Source of the DNA: Magnetococcales bacterium
GTDB taxonomy: Bacteria > Pseudomonadota > Magnetococcia > Magnetococcales > JADFYX01
Assembly: GCA_002753565.1 (NCBI GenBank)
Contig: PEAM01000017.1
Location: 1 to 64,000 of the forward strand
DNA length: 64,000 bases
Direction: 5' to 3'
How positions within the stretch are numbered: the first letter of the stretch is position 1; each line of letters begins with the position of its first letter. The translations under genes were made by a program, and so were the position numbers. Shown here piece after piece: positions 4-64,000 of this stretch. The notes beneath the pieces are model-generated. The model was given only the letters and a program-made list of their open reading frames with translations, was not told where the DNA came from and ran no database searches.

Positions 4-79
4 TGGTGGGCCCACCAAGATTCGAACTTGGGACCGGCCGGTTATGAGCCGGCGGCTCTGACCGCTGAGCTATGGGCCC
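4..79 (-). tRNA. tRNA with CAU anticodon (Met elongator or Ile2)
   Basis: Read on the minus strand this is a complete 76-nt cloverleaf. The 7-bp acceptor stem (GGGCCCA/TGGGCCC) is followed by an encoded CCA end. The D-arm contains AGCTCAGCGGTCAGAGC, the anticodon stem is GCCGG/CCGGC around the loop CTCATAA (anticodon CAU), and the T-arm carries GTTCGAATC. CAU can belong to elongator Met or to Ile2, whose C34 is modified to lysidine by TilS. The loop lacks initiator features: the acceptor is fully paired and there is no run of three G-C pairs in the anticodon stem. I cannot separate Met from Ile2 by eye. Confidence 0.93.
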
Positions 80-55284: not shown

Positions 55285-57555
55285 TTACCGGTTGAAATAG
55301 CTGAAAACACCATCCCAATCTTCCTCGGGTGGGTTGGTGTTAAAGTGTTGTATTCTTGAAAGATAGATATCGTAAATCATCCGTTCTGGATTTCTTTGCT
55401 GCAGGTTTTTGAACCGTTTTTCCGCCTCATCCCACTGCTGATTACGATAGAGTTCCAGTGCTTGGTGGTAGCTTGCAAGCTGAGCCTGGGTATCCGTTGT
55501 AATCTGATGAATGAAATCGACCGGCTCAAACAAAATCTCCGGCTCCACCCTCCCTTTAACCCGCACCCGATCCAGCTCCCGAAACAGCATTTCAGGGACC
55601 GCCTTTTGGGTCTCCTCTCCAACAATAATCAGCACCCCATACTGTTTGGTCAGCCCCAGCATATGAAAACCCAAATTGACCGCATCGCCCATAACCGTGT
55701 AGGCCACACGAAACTGGGAGCCCATGTTTCCCACCGTCATCCGACCGCTATTGATGCCAATGCCTATTTTCAGCAGAGGCCAACCACGGGCCTGGAACTC
55801 CGCTTTTAAGAGCTCCATGTTCTGCACAATATCGAAGGCAGCCAACAGGCTGTTTCTAGCATGGTGGCCATCAATCATGGGAGCGCCCCAGAAAGCCATG
55901 ACCGAGTCACCCATATATTTGTCTATTGTTCCTGAATGGCTCTGAATGGTTTCAGTGATAGGGGTTAAAAAAGCGCTCATCAATCGAGAGAGATCCTCGG
56001 GTTCAATCTCTTCGGAAAGGGTGGTAAATCCTCTTAGGTCGGTCAATAAGACGGTCATGTTCCTGGTCTCACCACCCAGGGAAAAGGTTTCATCGCTTCG
56101 AACCATCTCTTCCAGGCGGGGGGGGGAGACATAGTGACTAAACGCCTCGATGATAAGTCGCCTTCCTCTGGATACAACAAAAAAACCGTAGGCAAAGTGC
56201 CAGATAAAAAGCCCGATGGTCAGAAAAAGCGGAGAGGCCAGAGGGAGGATCAGATCATTGTTTTTCCATAAGAACAGATTACCACTTACCACAATCAAGA
56301 CCATCAACAGAGCCAGATAGAGGATTAAGGCAGGAGAAGATTTGGCGCTGATAAAACCAAACATCAGACCAATTATCAGTAAAATCAACACCTCCACCAA
56401 CAGGGTGTACTGACCAGGAGTATGCTTGATAAGCCCATCCAACATACCGCTGATAATGTTGGCGTGAATTTCTACACCAGGAAACAGAGGCTGAATAGGG
56501 GTAGAACGCAGGTCCTTCAATCCCGGTGCGGTAGTGCCGATGAGAACGATGGCATCTTGCAGAATAAGAGGGTCGGCTTTTTTGGTGATCACATCAACTG
56601 CCGAGACGTAGGGGAAACTTCCCTGACCACCCCGGTAAGGGATGAAAACGGCCCCCTGTTCATCGATTGGAATATGATGGGGTCCAAGGCCGATCCAGGC
56701 CAAGCCCGTCTCGATGGTCCTGTTTTGTTGCCCAACGGTTTTATTGATTCCCAACGTTAAGGGAGGCTCACCAAGAATGGCTCGAATCACAGCCAAAGAG
56801 AGCGCTTGGTACAGTTTGCCTTGATACTCTTGAAGAAGTGGAACCCGGCGGAAAAAACCGTCGTTATCAACCAGGGGGTTATCAAAAAAACCGGCACCCA
56901 GGGCAACATCTTGGAGCATCTCCAGGTTGGCACCAAATCCGGTCGCTTTAAGAAAGGGAATGGTATGTTGTCCCAACTCATCCAGCGTGATAACCGGCTC
57001 TGGCAACTGCCCAAAGGTGTGAGTACCCGCATGAACCGACCCCCGAAAATAGTAACCGAGAATGATGTTTCTATCCTCAATACTATCAGCCAACCGTTCG
57101 TCTCGTTCCAGGGAGGGGCGTATTTTTCTAAGTTCAGTCAAGAAGGGGTCATTATTTTTCAATGGCCCCCTGGCCAACTGCTCAAGAATGGGCAGACCGG
57201 AGCTGGTATCCGGCTCGGAAAAGGTGACATCAAACCCAACGACCCCCACACGATAGTGATCGAAAAGATTGTCCACCAGGTCGGCCATTTTATCTCGACC
57301 CCAGGGCCAACGACCAATGTTGGCAAGACTTTTTTCGTCTAGATCAACAATAACTACCCGTTGGTCAACCGTATTAGCCGCACTCAATCGGACCCGAACA
57401 TCATAGGCCAGAGTCTCCAACCGGTCCAAAAACGGCCAAGGAAGAATCCCCAAGGTATGGAGCAGCACCCCTGCTAACAGCAGAAGGCCAATGATATGGC
57501 GAAGGGGATGACGATGGGTCAACAGGGATCTCCTCTCAGCCAACCCGTCATCCAA
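55285..57555 (-). CDS. CHASE2-domain class III adenylate/guanylate cyclase
   Basis: Membrane receptor cyclase of 756 residues. One N-terminal hydrophobic segment (HIIGLLLLAGVLLHTLG), the extracytoplasmic CHASE2 domain (RVVIVDLDEKSLANIGRWPWGR, DVTFSEPD, VLIGTTAPGLKDLRSTPI), and a set of three hydrophobic segments (about 375-460). The cyclase domain begins TVLLTDLRGFTTLSEEI. Both metal Asp (TDLRGF, MGDS) are intact, with the substrate Lys in IDKYMGD. The transition-state Arg is replaced (VNLGFHM instead of VNLA-x-R). TTG starts only; a later TTG at 57522 has GGAG upstream. Confidence 0.88.
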   Translation of the reverse strand: MDDGLAERRSLLTHRHPLRHIIGLLLLAGVLLHTLGILPWPFLDRLETLAYDVRVRLSAANTVDQRVVIVDLDEKSLANIGRWPWGRDKMADLVDNLFDHYRVGVVGFDVTFSEPDTSSGLPILEQLARGPLKNNDPFLTELRKIRPSLERDERLADSIEDRNIILGYYFRGSVHAGTHTFGQLPEPVITLDELGQHTIPFLKATGFGANLEMLQDVALGAGFFDNPLVDNDGFFRRVPLLQEYQGKLYQALSLAVIRAILGEPPLTLGINKTVGQQNRTIETGLAWIGLGPHHIPIDEQGAVFIPYRGGQGSFPYVSAVDVITKKADPLILQDAIVLIGTTAPGLKDLRSTPIQPLFPGVEIHANIISGMLDGLIKHTPGQYTLLVEVLILLIIGLMFGFISAKSSPALILYLALLMVLIVVSGNLFLWKNNDLILPLASPLFLTIGLFIWHFAYGFFVVSRGRRLIIEAFSHYVSPPRLEEMVRSDETFSLGGETRNMTVLLTDLRGFTTLSEEIEPEDLSRLMSAFLTPITETIQSHSGTIDKYMGDSVMAFWGAPMIDGHHARNSLLAAFDIVQNMELLKAEFQARGWPLLKIGIGINSGRMTVGNMGSQFRVAYTVMGDAVNLGFHMLGLTKQYGVLIIVGEETQKAVPEMLFRELDRVRVKGRVEPEILFEPVDFIHQITTDTQAQLASYHQALELYRNQQWDEAEKRFKNLQQRNPERMIYDIYLSRIQHFNTNPPEEDWDGVFSYFNR

Positions 57556-57611: not shown

Positions 57612-59303
57612 CTATTGCGGTTCATACCCAGGAATTTTTTCGTGGATAACCTCATCAATTTGATCCGGGCGCAGATGTTTTTCAGCATATTCCAAATAGA
57701 CCTTTTCATCAATAAAAACTTGAAAAAGGTCTGGATCAACATGCTGATCCTTCTTCATAAAGCCAAGAATTTTGAGGGATTCGGAGAGGCTTTTGGGTTT
57801 TTTGTAAGGGCGATCAGCAGCTGTAAGGGCTTCAAAAACGTCGGCAATAGCCATGATTCGGGCGGGGATGGACATCTGTTCTCGAGTCAAGCCGTCGGGG
57901 TATCCGGTTCCAATCATGGTTTCGTGATGGGATCCGGCCATTTCTGGAACATTTTTCAAGTTTTTGGGGAAGGGAATCGTGCTGAGCATTTTTTTGGTTG
58001 CAACCACATGGTGATTAATGATCTCTCGCTCTTCGGGTGTCAGGGTTCCTTTGGCAATGTTGAGGTTATAGACCTCATTTTCAGAGAGGAAAGGTTTCTC
58101 TTCGCCGCTTGGGTCGGTCCAGCGGTAGTTGGCAATGTTGACAACCCGCTCCTGGCGCTCTTTAGACATAAACTCACCGCCCATATTGGACTCTTCTATA
58201 AACTTACGGTCCTCATTAATCTCTCCTATTCTCCGTTTCAGCTCATCCTCCAATGCTGGGATATCTTCACTTTTACCGGCCTCCAGAAGGGCTATTTTTT
58301 TCTGGAGAAAAGCAATTTCAGCATCCCGTTTCAACACCTCAAAGCGGGTGGAAACGGTCTCTATTCGATCGTAAATGGTTTCTAGTTTTGTGGATTTATC
58401 GACAACATATTCTGGTGTTACCACCTTTCCACAGTCATGCATCCAGGCAGCAATCCTGATTTCATAGATATCTTCTTCATCTGGGGTAAAATCTTTTAGC
58501 TCGCCGATGTTAGACCGTTTAGCCGCCTTGGAGAGCATATCTGCCAGAACAGGAACACGATCGCAATGGCCGGCGGTATAGGGAGACTTGTCATCAATAG
58601 CCCCAGCAATGGCTTGAATGAAGGATTCGAAGAGGGCCTTAAGGTCGGTGATCAACTTCTGGTTGGTCATGGCAATCGCGGCCTGAGAGGAGAGAGACTC
58701 CGCAAGCTGCTGATCTTCTTGACTAAATGACCTTATCTCGCCGCTATTCGCATCGATAGCGTTGATCAGTTGAAGGACACCGATAATCTCATTTTCATGG
58801 TTTTTCAGGGGGACGGTCAAAAAAGATTTAGAACGGTATCCGGTGTTGCTGTCAAAAGCCTTGGTTCCTGAGAAATCGAAACCTTTGGCTTCGTAGGCAT
58901 CGGGTATATTGATGGATCTCTCTTCCAGGGCCACATAGGCGGCAATCATCTGTTTGTTGGGAACCCCATCTTTATACAGGGGAAGCTCGGGAAAATTAAT
59001 CGTAATACCGGTGGTGCCACCCATGGCAATATTGAGAGAGTCAGTTCGAATAATTTCAAAACGCAGGGTATCATTTTCCGTGCGAATATACATGGTTCCG
59101 GCATCGGCATTGGTCAACTCCTTGGCGCCGACAAGGATACTCTCCAACAGCCGAGAGGTATCTTTTTCGGAGGAGAGGGCTATACCAATTTTATTGAGTT
59201 TATCAACCCGTTCCAGAATACTGTTAATTCGATCTTCCACCACGGTCGAGTCCGGGTTGGGCAGGTCGACCAAATCATTGTTATCCGTTGTTTCGGAACC
59301 CAT
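57612..59303 (-). CDS. GAF / HD-GYP phosphodiesterase with insert
   Basis: 563 residues. GAF domain at about 35-205 (LLESILVGAKELTNADAGTMYI, GVLQLINAIDAN). HD-GYP: AGHCDRVPVLADML and WMHDCGKV near 290, then a charged coiled-coil insert of about 85 residues (ETVSTRFEVLKRDAEIA to MSKERQERV). The second half follows, with INHHVVATKKML, GSHHETMIGTGYPDGL and ADVFEALTAADRPYKK. Most ligands for c-di-GMP hydrolysis are present, though the Asp of HHExxDGxGYP is Ile. ATG 59303. The family degrades c-di-GMP, so this likely opposes diguanylate cyclases in the PilZ network. Confidence 0.87.
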   Translation of the reverse strand: MGSETTDNNDLVDLPNPDSTVVEDRINSILERVDKLNKIGIALSSEKDTSRLLESILVGAKELTNADAGTMYIRTENDTLRFEIIRTDSLNIAMGGTTGITINFPELPLYKDGVPNKQMIAAYVALEERSINIPDAYEAKGFDFSGTKAFDSNTGYRSKSFLTVPLKNHENEIIGVLQLINAIDANSGEIRSFSQEDQQLAESLSSQAAIAMTNQKLITDLKALFESFIQAIAGAIDDKSPYTAGHCDRVPVLADMLSKAAKRSNIGELKDFTPDEEDIYEIRIAAWMHDCGKVVTPEYVVDKSTKLETIYDRIETVSTRFEVLKRDAEIAFLQKKIALLEAGKSEDIPALEDELKRRIGEINEDRKFIEESNMGGEFMSKERQERVVNIANYRWTDPSGEEKPFLSENEVYNLNIAKGTLTPEEREIINHHVVATKKMLSTIPFPKNLKNVPEMAGSHHETMIGTGYPDGLTREQMSIPARIMAIADVFEALTAADRPYKKPKSLSESLKILGFMKKDQHVDPDLFQVFIDEKVYLEYAEKHLRPDQIDEVIHEKIPGYEPQ

Positions 59304-59846: not shown

Positions 59847-61889
59847 ATGCGTCGTCTATTGGTCACCAGTGCGCTTCCTTATGCCAACGGGCATATTCAT
59901 CTTGGTCATCTGGTGGAGTATATCCAAACCGATATCTGGGTGAGGTTTCATAAGCTCCAAGGTCGGGAGTGTTACTATTTTTGTGCGGATGATACCCACG
60001 GAACCCCCATCATGATCCGGGCTAGAAAGGAAGGGATCTCTCCAGAAGAGCTGGTGGAAAAGATGCACCACCATCATCTGGAGGATTTTTCCGGTTTTAA
60101 TATCGAGTTTGACAACTATTACACCACCAACTCCGAAGAGAATCGCCTGCTCTCCGAAGAGGTCTATCTGAGCAATAAAAAGGCCGGTCATATTCGCAAA
60201 GATACTGTCCGCCAAGCCTATTGTGAACACGATGCCATGTTTCTTCCCGACCGTTTTATTCGGGGCTGCTGTCCCCGCTGTGGTGCGGAAGATCAGTATG
60301 GCGATGCCTGTGAATCCTGCTCGGCTACCTACTCTCCTCTGGAACTTGTCAAACCAGGTTGCGCTTTGTGCGGCAAGAAACCTGTCGAGAAGGAGTCTGA
60401 ACACCATTTCTTTAAACTCAACGACTTTGAATCTTATCTTAGAGAGTGGACCCGTTCCGGTACCCTTCAAGAGGAGATGGCCAACAAGCTGGATGAGTGG
60501 TTTGATTCCGGCTTGAGAGATTGGGATATCTCTCGGGACGGGCCTTACTTCGGGTTTGAAATTCCCGGTGCCCCAGGGAAATATTTTTACGTTTGGCTGG
60601 ACGCCCCCATCGGCTATATGGCCTCAACCTGGGACTACTGCAAACGAAACAACCTGGATTTTGATCAATTTTGGCGTCGGGATGACTATTCTGAAGTGTA
60701 TCATTTTATTGGCAAAGATATTCTCTACTTCCACACTCTTTTCTGGCCGGCCACCCTCAAAGGAGCGGGATTTCGCAGGCCGACGGCGGTTTTTGCCCAT
60801 GGGTTTCTCACGGTTAATGGACAAAAAATGTCCAAATCCCGAGGTACTTTTATCAACGCACGGGATTATCTTACCTATCTGGACCCAGAATACCTGCGCT
60901 ATTACTATGCTGCCAAACTGACAAGCCGTGTGGATGATCTGGACCTGAGTCTGGATGATTTTGTGCTTCGTGTAAACAGCGATCTGGTCGGAAAGGTAGT
61001 CAATCTAGCCTCTCGAACCGCCGGATTCATCCTAAAACGTTTTGATGGCAAGTTATCGACCCCCTATCCTGATGATGGCGGGTTGCATCAACGCTTTGTT
61101 GCCGCCGGCGACGACATCTCACAGCTTTATGAGTCCAGAGAGTTTGCCAAGGCCATGCGGGCCATCATGGTGCTGGCCGATGAGGCCAACCGCTACGTTG
61201 AAGAAAAAGCCCCCTGGAAACTCGCTAAAGGGAAAGCAGAAGCGCCACTTCAAGAGTCCTGCTCCGTCGCCTTGAACCTGTTTAGAATCCTCATGATCTA
61301 CCTTCAGCCTGTGCTTCCAGAAATGGCTGAAAATTCAAGAAATTTTCTTAACTTACCCCCCTTTTCATGGCAGGATGTCAAGGAACCGTTATCGGGAATA
61401 ACCATTCAAAAATTCAGCCACCTGATGAACCGGGTCGACCCTAAAAAGGTCGCCGCCCTACAGGAGGCCTCTCGAGAGGCTCTCTCCCCTCCTCCCACCG
61501 CTTCTGCCAACAACAAGAGGCAGGAAGCCAAGAAAAAGCAGAACCAGGATACCGCTGATGAGATCACCATTGACGACTTCCTGAAGGTGGATTTACGGGT
61601 GGCAGAAATTGTTGCAGCTCAATCGGTCGAAGGGGCGGACAAACTGCTGCAACTGACCCTGAACTTTGGCGAAACAATTGGAAACCGTACGGTTTTTGCT
61701 GGTATTAAATCGGCCTATCAGCCGGAGAAACTTCTTGGCAGGCTTACGGTTGCTGTGGTCAATTTACAACCCAGAAAGATGAAATTTGGTCTCTCGGAGG
61801 GGATGGTGCTGGCGGCAGGACCGGGTGGTGAGGCACTTTTTCTACTCTCTCCCGATTCGGGCGCCAAGCCTGGGATGAAAATAAAATAG
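59847..61889 (+). CDS. metG: Methionyl-tRNA synthetase
   Basis: Charges tRNA-Met. 680 residues. HIGH-like motif in [15 protein letters not shown], zinc knuckle [19 protein letters not shown] with CALCGK (two metal sites), and KMSKSRGTF. The C-terminal tRNA-binding domain ([24 protein letters not shown], after a Lys-rich linker) makes it the dimeric E. coli-like form. ATG 59847 gives the standard N-terminus. Confidence 0.97.
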
Positions 61890-61926
61890 ACGCCCTGTCA
61901 CACCTTTAAATGGAAGGAAATCTGCC

Positions 61927-63681
61927 ATGTCAAACTCACTCTTTTCAATTGTTTTATTAACGGATGCTACGACAGTCAATCTCATTATCAAGAGTGCACT
62001 CGACCCAGAGCAGTTTTCTGTACAGATCGTCAAATCGTCCGATCCAGATTTTTTTGAACAGATTGCTGAAATCAAACCGGATCTTGTTTTTCTTAAAACA
62101 GAGCTAAGCCAGGCCAATGGTATAGAGGTTTGCGATAAGATCAAGCAGGATAAAGAGCTAAAATCAACCAAGGTGGTTTTTCTCTCTTCCAACCACAACA
62201 TCCGAGAACAGGCCATTCAACATCGAGCCGATCGATTCATCATTATTCCCTTCAAACGACCAGATGTCGAAAAGGTGGTGGAGATTCTTACCGAAAAACA
62301 AAAGAGAATTCTCTATGTGGACGATAGCGATCTTTTCCACAAATTGGTGGTACCGGCCCTTAAAGAGGAAGGCTATGAGGTCTTCGAAGCCTGGGATGGG
62401 CGGGAAGGGCTGGAAATTCTTGATGAGGAGGGCGCGGTTGATCTCATTCTATCTGATGTTGAAATGCCGGAGATGGATGGACTGGCTTTTTGTCGGAACG
62501 TACGAAAAAGCATGGTGGAGGATATCCCCTTTGTGCTGGTAACCTCTCTGGGAACCGAAGAGTCGGTTGCCCAGGGGTTTGAAGCAGGAGCTGACGACTA
62601 TATCCTCAAGCCGATTGTTCTGCCCGAACTGCTCTCTCGGGTTAAACGTCTGCTGAGTGCCAATGATGCGGATGATGTCAGCCGTCCTGAGCGGGTATTG
62701 GTGGTTGATGACTCCGAGATCATTCGGAATATTATTGTTAAATCCCTGCAGACCCACGGCTTTGCCGTTGACGAGGCAGAGCATGGTATCGAGGCTTTGG
62801 CCAAGCTTAGAGAGCGCAAGTACCATCTGTTGATTACCGACTATGAGATGCCCCACCTGGATGGGGTGGAGCTCTGTTTAAAGCTGCGAGAGAAGAGCAG
62901 CGAATTTAAAAATCTGCCTATTATTTTTGCCACCTCACGGGACTCTCGCACCGACCTGGTCAAGATGAGTTCCATCGGCATCCAGGCCTTTGTTGCCAAA
63001 CCTTTTGATGCAGACCGTATTATCGCAGAAACAGAGCGGGTTCTGGCGGAGTCAACGTTAACGATTCAAAAAACACAGTTCAACCAATTTTTCCAAGGCT
63101 CTCAAGTCTCTCGCGCTGTTGATCCCCATACCAAGGAGGAGTATCTCTCCGACGATCAGTATCGAACCATTCTCTCTACGGGTATTCTTGGTTTTCCGGC
63201 TTTGTGCCGAGAGATGCCCTCGGTTGAATTGGTTGCCATGCTCAATCGTTATTTTGACCGTATGGCAGAGATTCTCGACTCGGTGGATGCCATGGTAGAC
63301 AAATATAACGAAGATCGGATCTTCACCTCTTTCGGTAGTCAGGCCGAAGGGGCTGGTCGCGCCATTCAGGCCGCACAAAAAATGATCGAAGCCTTACCGG
63401 CATTGAACAAAAAGAACGGTCACCAGATCAAGATCCAAGTAGGCATTCACTCCGGTCATGTTATCCTGGGTCAACTGGGTGCCAAGCCTTTGGGACGGCG
63501 ACTGACCCTGATTGGGGAGAATATCCAAAACTGCGCAGCCATCAAGAGTCTAGCAGGTGGAAATGAGATTTTTCTAAGCAAGTCGACGGTTGACCTGGTG
63601 GGTGACAAAGTCAAGGTAGAGGCGGTGGACAAGAAGATACAGGTTGGAGAAAAAGAGGAGCCACTTTTTCGTCTCGTTTAG
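61927..63681 (+). CDS. Three receiver domains plus degenerate cyclase homology domain
   Basis: 584 residues. The first receiver-like domain (residues 1-120) has Lys57 where phospho-Asp should be (VFLKTEL), so it is a pseudo-receiver. Receiver 2 has Asp177 (ILSDVEMPEMDG) and receiver 3 Asp305 (LITDYEMPHLDG), both intact. The C-terminal class III cyclase homology domain (410-584) keeps one metal Asp (Asp463, DKYNED), but the other position is Gly419 (STGILGF). The Asn/Arg pair is also replaced (IQNCAAIK). I infer a signalling protein that integrates phosphorylation without cyclase activity. The gene starts 37 nt after the metG stop. Confidence 0.82.
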   Translation: MSNSLFSIVLLTDATTVNLIIKSALDPEQFSVQIVKSSDPDFFEQIAEIKPDLVFLKTELSQANGIEVCDKIKQDKELKSTKVVFLSSNHNIREQAIQHRADRFIIIPFKRPDVEKVVEILTEKQKRILYVDDSDLFHKLVVPALKEEGYEVFEAWDGREGLEILDEEGAVDLILSDVEMPEMDGLAFCRNVRKSMVEDIPFVLVTSLGTEESVAQGFEAGADDYILKPIVLPELLSRVKRLLSANDADDVSRPERVLVVDDSEIIRNIIVKSLQTHGFAVDEAEHGIEALAKLRERKYHLLITDYEMPHLDGVELCLKLREKSSEFKNLPIIFATSRDSRTDLVKMSSIGIQAFVAKPFDADRIIAETERVLAESTLTIQKTQFNQFFQGSQVSRAVDPHTKEEYLSDDQYRTILSTGILGFPALCREMPSVELVAMLNRYFDRMAEILDSVDAMVDKYNEDRIFTSFGSQAEGAGRAIQAAQKMIEALPALNKKNGHQIKIQVGIHSGHVILGQLGAKPLGRRLTLIGENIQNCAAIKSLAGGNEIFLSKSTVDLVGDKVKVEAVDKKIQVGEKEEPLFRLV

Positions 63682-63699
63682 TTAACCTGAAAACGGCCT

Positions 63700-63743
63700 T
63701 TGGCGCTCTGGGAAGGGCGGTTCTTCTCTTCCCAGAGCGCCAA
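63700..63743. terminator. 16-bp perfect hairpin between convergent genes
   Basis: TTGGCGCTCTGGGAAG and its exact complement enclose a 12-nt loop, about 18 nt after the receiver-protein stop and 27 nt before the iscX stop. Its GC-rich arms and position between convergent genes indicate a bidirectional terminator. Confidence 0.75.
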
Positions 63744-63770
63744 TCAAGCGACTCTGGTTTTCTGGCGGAT

Positions 63771-63965
63771 TTACTCCCGCTCATCCAGCCAGACCATCTG
63801 GATGGCCTCCAGAACTTTTTCATTGCACCGCTCCGGAACATCATCAAACCCCGGAAGGGCCATGACCCACTCTCTTAAGTCGGTAAAGCGGACAGAGAGT
63901 GGATCGATATCCGGCTTGGAATCAGCCAGTTCGATGCCAATATCTTGAACGTCGGTCCATTTCAT
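63771..63965 (-). CDS. iscX: Fe-S assembly accessory protein IscX
   Basis: 64 residues that align along the whole length with E. coli IscX (YfhJ): MKWTDVQDIGIELADSKPDIDPLSVRFTDLREWV, with the acidic conserved surface, and the end NEKVLEAIQMVWLDERE. IscX binds IscS and modulates desulfuration and iron delivery. GAGGGG precedes the ATG. It is unusual that it lies about 36 kb from the isc operon. A stop codon 3 nt before its ATG ends another frame that runs in from beyond the window. Confidence 0.93.
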   Translation of the reverse strand: MKWTDVQDIGIELADSKPDIDPLSVRFTDLREWVMALPGFDDVPERCNEKVLEAIQMVWLDERE

Positions 63966-63968
63966 GGT

Positions 63969-64000
63969 TTACCCCTCTTTTTTATCGACACGGATGTTTT
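63969..64000 (-). CDS. C-terminal end of an unidentified gene (upstream of iscX)
   Basis: Partial: reading from the right edge, the frame gives N-I-R-V-D-K-K-E-G then TAA, 3 nt before the iscX ATG. The tight spacing implies an operon. In many proteobacteria iscX follows fdx, and fdx is missing after hscA here, so this could be the ferredoxin gene. Nine residues are too few to tell. Confidence 0.35.
   Translation of the reverse strand, partial: NIRVDKKEG

Follow-up and report, generated by a model that had tools for sequence, protein, structure and literature searches.

Three receivers and a catalytically incomplete class III cyclase domain in a protein family of the order Magnetococcales

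PleD is a second-messenger response regulator in which two receivers precede a GGDEF output domain that makes c-di-GMP. Among kinases and GGDEF proteins, pseudo-enzymes are a familiar finding. Second-messenger production is the role described for response regulators of the CheY-cyclase type (PMC1183210). What defines a class III cyclase is its set of metal, substrate and transition-state residues (PMC4886424). According to PMC8815786, the active sites of class III cyclases are shared by two subunits; some are heterodimers, where the partner may supply the missing residues or a degenerate site may be regulatory. In the alpha chain of soluble guanylate cyclase (PDB 3UVJ_A) the two metal Asps are kept, with T and K at the positions of the transition-state Asn and Arg. 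Here, as in the mammalian C1/C2 cyclases, the shared site is incomplete in one chain and is completed by the partner.

We analyzed a protein that joins three receivers (REC1 to REC3) to a class III cyclase homology domain (CHD). Its gene lies in a 64,000-nucleotide stretch of DNA (the window) from a genome assembly of the order Magnetococcales (3.87 Mb in 92 contigs). Pfam recognized three Response_reg stretches (E 4.9e-66) in the 584-residue protein, followed by a Guanylate_cyc match that spans residues 414-568 (E 2.2e-12). Only receiver-level matches, all below cut-off, were found for this protein in NCBIfam among the best 25 of the 99 matches listed. The ATG is separated by 37 bp from the stop codon of metG, with the purine-rich GGAAGGAAA just 5' of it. 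The features of the locus are listed in Table 1. Note that the sole tRNA gene of the window, tRNA-Met (CAT), is located at the window edge (4-79, minus strand).

Table 1. Position of the receiver-cyclase gene, its domains and the neighboring genes in the window.
Feature	Coordinates	Strand	Basis and details
CHASE2-cyclase gene	55285..57555	-	Pfam and residue alignment; metal Asps and Asn present, transition-state Arg -> His (H631)
GAF + HD domain protein (HD_5)	57612..59303	-	Pfam; adjoins metG in most loci read
metG, methionyl-tRNA synthetase	59847..61889	+	Pfam; directly upstream of the orthologue in 17/25 loci
pREC-REC-REC-pseudoCHD gene	61927..63681	+	ATG start, 584 aa; ORF call and orthologues
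REC1, pseudo-receiver	61942..62292	+	phospho-Asp -> K57; T12-D13 in acidic pocket; Ile107 at Lys position
REC2, intact receiver	62302..62670	+	D132, D133, D177, T206, K228
REC3, intact receiver	62689..63054	+	D261, D262, D305, T336, K358
Predicted long helix, residues 362-388	63010..63090	+	AlphaFold; last helix of REC3 toward CHD
Class III CHD, no full catalytic set	63142..63678	+	G419, D463, Q534, A538; K459 and T527 kept

PleD was the top Foldseek match of the receiver part (PDB 1W25, 2V0N, 9G85), and the two proteins have in common that several receivers precede a cyclase. In contrast to PleD, the focal protein has a third receiver, and its output is a class III CHD that lacks the full catalytic set. 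Neither the receivers and the CHD nor their arrangement is new; what differs is the conserved dead output. A literature search limited to open-access sources found no pseudo-cyclase of this kind.

Orthologues were present in 25 of the 48 Magnetococcales genomes. A profile built from them gave no match at E <= 1e-60 beyond these 25 in 398 genomes of the phylum. A partial second copy in one genome (L136 in G043) was excluded from all orthologue counts. Its absence from the remaining genomes shows that the order can dispense with the gene. The preliminary description of this DNA, made from the sequence of the window, had read the protein as a pseudo-cyclase whose first receiver is dead and whose other two are intact. 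This reading is supported, and the arrangement is conserved across the order. The alignment confirmed the proposed loss of the phospho-Asp of REC1 (K57), with Arg (19) or Lys (6) at position 57 in every orthologue. The invariant residues of REC1 include T12, D13, P51, F55, L60, G65, F85-S87, R93, A96, F104, P108 and F109. The phospho-Asps assigned to REC2 (D177) and REC3 (D305) were likewise borne out. In REC2 the phospho-site Asp, Thr and Lys are kept in 25/25 orthologues, and in REC3 D305 is kept in 24, with Ala in the remaining one (L024). In the focal protein both domains contain the acidic pocket, phospho-Asp, Thr/Ser and Lys expected in a response regulator, whereas REC1 does not. From their residues, two of the three receivers thus look switchable.

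We next consider the CHD, for which the absence of one metal Asp (Gly419) and of the Asn/Arg pair had been claimed. Both losses hold residue for residue in the 25-orthologue alignment: metal Asp 1 is Gly419, metal Asp 2 is D463, Asn is Gln534 and Arg is Ala538. D463 is therefore the sole catalytic residue of the four left in the focal protein, while the substrate-specifying pair (Lys and Asp/Thr) is present as K459 and T527. Pairwise alignment with 2W01, a cyclase of known structure, also placed G419/D463/Q534/A538 on D/D/N/R. The domain scored 47.4 bits against Pfam PF00211 (cut-off 21.9). AlphaFold, run with the 25-row alignment, modelled the focal protein at a mean pLDDT of 86.6, and the predicted CHD (residues 406-584) superposed on P. 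aeruginosa CyaB (3R5G) with a Z score of 24.1 and 1.7 A over 178 residues. Taking CyaB, Cya2 (2W01) and CyaC (1WC1) together, Z scores were 23-24 over 178 residues at 22-26% identity. These three proteins share the fold and are enzymes with the catalytic set, in contrast to the focal protein, which lacks three of the four residues. Since the alignment to 2W01 matches D/D/N/R and the model can be superposed on cyclases of known structure, the missing residues are not simply located elsewhere in the domain, and the structural comparison sustains the earlier assignment.

The survey of homologues suggested in the preliminary description extended the catalytic loss to the whole family. D/D/N/R together was found in none of the 25 orthologues. 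At metal Asp 1, five orthologues have D, 13 have G, five R, one N and one T; at metal Asp 2, 21 have D; a single protein (L023), which lacks Arg only, has kept the Asn; and Arg is kept in 7. Three orthologues (L003, L007, L025) show the pattern of the soluble guanylate cyclase alpha chain. In soluble guanylate cyclase, as in the mammalian C1/C2 cyclases, the partner can complete the site, but no partner can do so for the focal protein, in which metal Asp 1 is missing as well. The earliest branches of the family are less degraded, as metal Asp 1 is present in five orthologues.

The structural Gly residues of the CHD are kept (G506 in 23/25, G510 in 25/25, G515 in 24/25 and G530 in 25/25), and all orthologues have R413 at the beginning of the first CHD strand. 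Mean pairwise identity among the orthologues is 49% for REC1, 64% for REC2, 58% for REC3 and 37% for the CHD; the dead REC1 is thus better conserved than the CHD. By a simple counting method, dN/dS of the CHD was 0.04-0.41 in 7 of 9 near pairs, the other two being saturated in dS. Selection on the CHD is purifying, although the receivers are mostly under stronger constraint. Sequencing error or a pseudogene as the source of the substitutions was ruled out by the intact frame in 25 genomes together with dN/dS below 1. Loss at the four catalytic positions was not significantly worse than loss at 19 other CHD-conserved columns (p = 0.10), several of which sit beside the active site; the set of 64 'canonical' proteins in this comparison takes in L048, L090 and L097, all of which lack Arg.

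Could the protein still be an enzyme, either a cyclase with unusual residues or a catalyst that employs the remaining Asp, K459 and T527 for a different reaction of nucleotides? D463, K459 and T527 are present in the focal protein, and Asn is, according to PMC4886424, not essential in every cyclase; Rv1900c has His at this position, yet is described there as active. However, metal Asp 1, Asn and Arg are jointly lost, K459 is Lys in only 10 of the 25 orthologues, and the replacements of Asp 1 vary (G, R, N, T), as expected under relaxed constraint. Because the focal protein fails in both roles at the metal site and at the transition-state pair, an enzymatic function would need new chemistry, and we regard it as very improbable. 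Alternatively, the dead CHD might serve as a sensor, gating the receivers upon binding of ATP/GTP or a cyclic nucleotide; forskolin acts in a similar way on mammalian adenylyl cyclase, at its degenerate site. The intact predicted fold would allow this, and the degenerate mammalian site is regulatory (PMC8815786). The base contacts are variable, however, with Lys at 459 in the minority of orthologues just given and Thr at 527 in 15/25 (counted from the alignment). We consider a sensor function improbable.

The other cyclases of the same genomes served as a control. The focal genome contains nine CHDs, and all seven besides the focal and CHASE2 proteins keep D/D/N/R. In eight other genomes of the order we found 61 CHD matches, consisting of 7 of the focal family, 4 of the CHASE2 family and 50 others. 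All 50 were retrieved and D/D/N/R was complete in 48, the exceptions being L239 and L257 (Asn -> Gly). From its sequence pattern, L239 is taken as the CHASE2 orthologue of its genome (G024). A general decay of cyclases in Magnetococcales is thereby ruled out, and the residue pattern of the focal family lies well outside what chance would give.

The presence of seven canonical CHDs in the cell bears on a further possibility, that the pseudo-CHD acts as a dominant negative. It would pair with active cyclases to form incomplete heterodimers, and phosphorylation of the receivers would tune cAMP by titration. Because class III sites span two subunits, as stated above, such pairing is conceivable: with the residues of the focal protein, both composite sites formed with a canonical partner would be incomplete, and the same applies to 21 of the 25 orthologues. 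In contrast, the four orthologues that have both metal Asps would form one complete site with a canonical partner. Moreover, the pairing of cyclases is usually set by their receiver and coiled-coil parts. Titration is therefore unlikely in our estimate.

The preliminary description had pointed to the CHASE2 cyclase 4 kb away as a possible heterodimer partner, treating it as a normal enzyme. The latter assumption did not survive the alignment, as the copy in the window carries His (H631) at the transition-state Arg. A match to the CHASE2 family (E <= 1e-100) was found in 28 of the 48 Magnetococcales genomes. Of these 28 genomes, the full residue set is kept in 10; metal Asp 1 is changed to Asn in 10 (genus g7, with G024 counted via L239); none of the four residues is left in 7 (family f13); and Arg is changed to His in 1, the focal genome. 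Thus, a second family is decaying in the same order.

Can the two proteins complete each other as a heterodimeric cyclase? Their genes are neighbors in 8 of the 25 loci, with CHASE2 on the far side of metG (some contigs end early). Neither is found at this locus in G004, a genome of the same genus (L283, compared with window positions 59847-64000 and with L146), in which metG is followed at once by a GspE-like ATPase gene. In the focal genome the pseudo-cyclase gene, an IscX-like gene and a ferredoxin-like gene lie between metG and the GspE-like gene, and all three are absent in G004; GspE, IscX and ferredoxin identities were assigned from the sequence by eye. In addition, in the 17 genomes with both proteins, the pseudo-cyclase has metal Asp 1 in 4, in all of which CHASE2 is complete, and lacks it in 13, in 12 of which CHASE2 is decayed. 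This correlation looks strong (12/13 versus 0/4), but we rejected it as proof, since the tree provides only two independent pairs, one agreeing with correlated decay and one showing no difference.

The residues themselves argue against such a heterodimer. No pairing completes a site in the focal genome, because both proteins lack Arg and the focal protein lacks metal Asp 1. A composite site is complete in only 3 of the 17 genomes (G011, G021, G025), where CHASE2 is complete by itself, and is incomplete in the other 14. Co-occurrence was not beyond chance among the 48 genomes (both proteins in 17, pseudo-cyclase only in 8, CHASE2 only in 11, neither in 12; Fisher p = 0.24), and the 8 genomes with the pseudo-cyclase only have no CHASE2 match at the above threshold. 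Note that the CHASE2 gene adjoins the GAF-HD and metG genes also in three genomes lacking the pseudo-cyclase (G005, G008, G031), and thus the 4-kb spacing probably reflects metG. The proposal that CHASE2 supplies the missing residues is therefore not supported, and we consider a heterodimeric cyclase highly unlikely. A looser tie between the two families may exist, given the decay of CHASE2 in the same order and the absence of both genes from G004.

To place the family among its relatives, genome contigs were scanned for proteins of the same layout, and eight were found outside Magnetococcales (L036-L043). The focal protein shares with them the domain order pREC-REC-REC-CHD and similarity over the full length. 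The 25 orthologues formed one group against the eight outgroup receiver-cyclases with support of 100/99, the program warning of long branches. A quick tree of the CHD only again recovered them as one group (SH-aLRT 89), with L036 and L038-L043 nearby and L037 outside. Six of the eight outgroups have complete D/D/N/R: L036 (bacterium JPMR_maxbin.121), L037 (Deltaproteobacteria ADurb.Bin207), L039 (Methylococcaceae), L040 (Verrucomicrobia) and L042/L043 (Opitutia). Like the focal protein, these six have a dead REC1, an intact REC3 and a C-terminal CHD, with 26-33% identity to it over most of the length. They differ from it in their complete catalytic set, and in L039, L040, L042 and L043 REC2 is altered as well. 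REC1 was already dead in the outgroups. The number of catalytic residues kept ranges from none to three in the orthologues, compared to four in these six relatives.

The two exceptions, L038 (Ignavibacteria bacterium Clear-D13) and L041 (Candidatus Kapabacterium Prado071), have metal Asp 1 -> Asn, Lys -> Ser, Arg -> Gln/Leu and a degenerate REC2; their genomes carry 25-26 CHD matches. They apparently represent a second, independent cyclase decay. Separately, we observed that the Chloroflexota-type receiver-cyclases L048, L090 and L097 (Thermoflexus, Anaerolineae, Thermoflexales) keep Asn and have M/T/D at the Arg position. Because six of the eight receiver-cyclase relatives in other phyla have complete active sites, the focal CHD would have decayed from an active enzyme, and the simplest reading of the tree is that activity was lost within the Magnetococcales line.

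At loci away from metG, several orthologues are located next to signaling genes. In G015 these encode CheA, CheB, Hpt and a cNMP-binding protein; G011 has CheB, a hybrid kinase with Hpt and an MCP-hemerythrin protein; G014 has a PilZ-CheX protein together with a Crp-type regulator; and G021 has a hybrid kinase. These signaling neighbors are compatible with phosphorelay input. Neighbors that do not fit are a flavoprotein and a U32 peptidase in G007 and an ankyrin protein in G006. In G014 (L157, 11292-13334), a 195-residue protein without Pfam match and the PilZ-CheX fusion lie downstream of the orthologue; an ORF similar to the 195-residue protein follows the orthologue in G025.

Taken together, we favor the view that the focal protein is probably a response regulator with a catalytically dead class III cyclase output, which arose from an active receiver-cyclase with this domain order and would act, under control of phosphorylation, by dimerization or protein contact instead of making cAMP. 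The ancestor would have been an active enzyme consisting of a pseudo-receiver, two receivers and a cyclase. In the Magnetococcales line the catalytic residues would then have been lost stepwise, with retention of the fold, the two phosphorylatable receivers and the dead REC1. We infer that a histidine kinase, a hybrid kinase/Hpt or a chemotaxis kinase phosphorylates REC2 and/or REC3, and that this alters self-association of the protein. The predicted long helix could relay the change to the cyclase-fold dimer, which would signal by binding a partner, possibly with nucleotide sensing, and not by cAMP synthesis. A broader proposal is that a non-enzymatic cyclase fold operates across the order: phosphorylation of two receivers would control a pseudo-cyclase dimer, and this dimer would regulate further proteins, for example active cyclases via dead heterodimers. 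CHASE2 would be converting in parallel, turning a former two-branch cAMP module into a protein-contact switch. This extension is doubtful at present.

The findings have consequences for how cyclase genes are counted, as the number of such genes does not equal the number of cAMP makers; only seven of the nine CHDs of the focal genome have the full set. With orthologues that keep none to three of the catalytic residues and outgroups that keep four, the transition from enzyme to non-enzyme is directly testable by assay. An order-conserved bacterial class III pseudo-cyclase with receiver input and graded catalytic loss would be a good case for the conversion of an enzyme into a non-enzymatic signaling part. 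The order Magnetococcales includes the magnetotactic cocci, and in this order the family is broken yet kept by selection, which points to a signaling job other than cAMP production.
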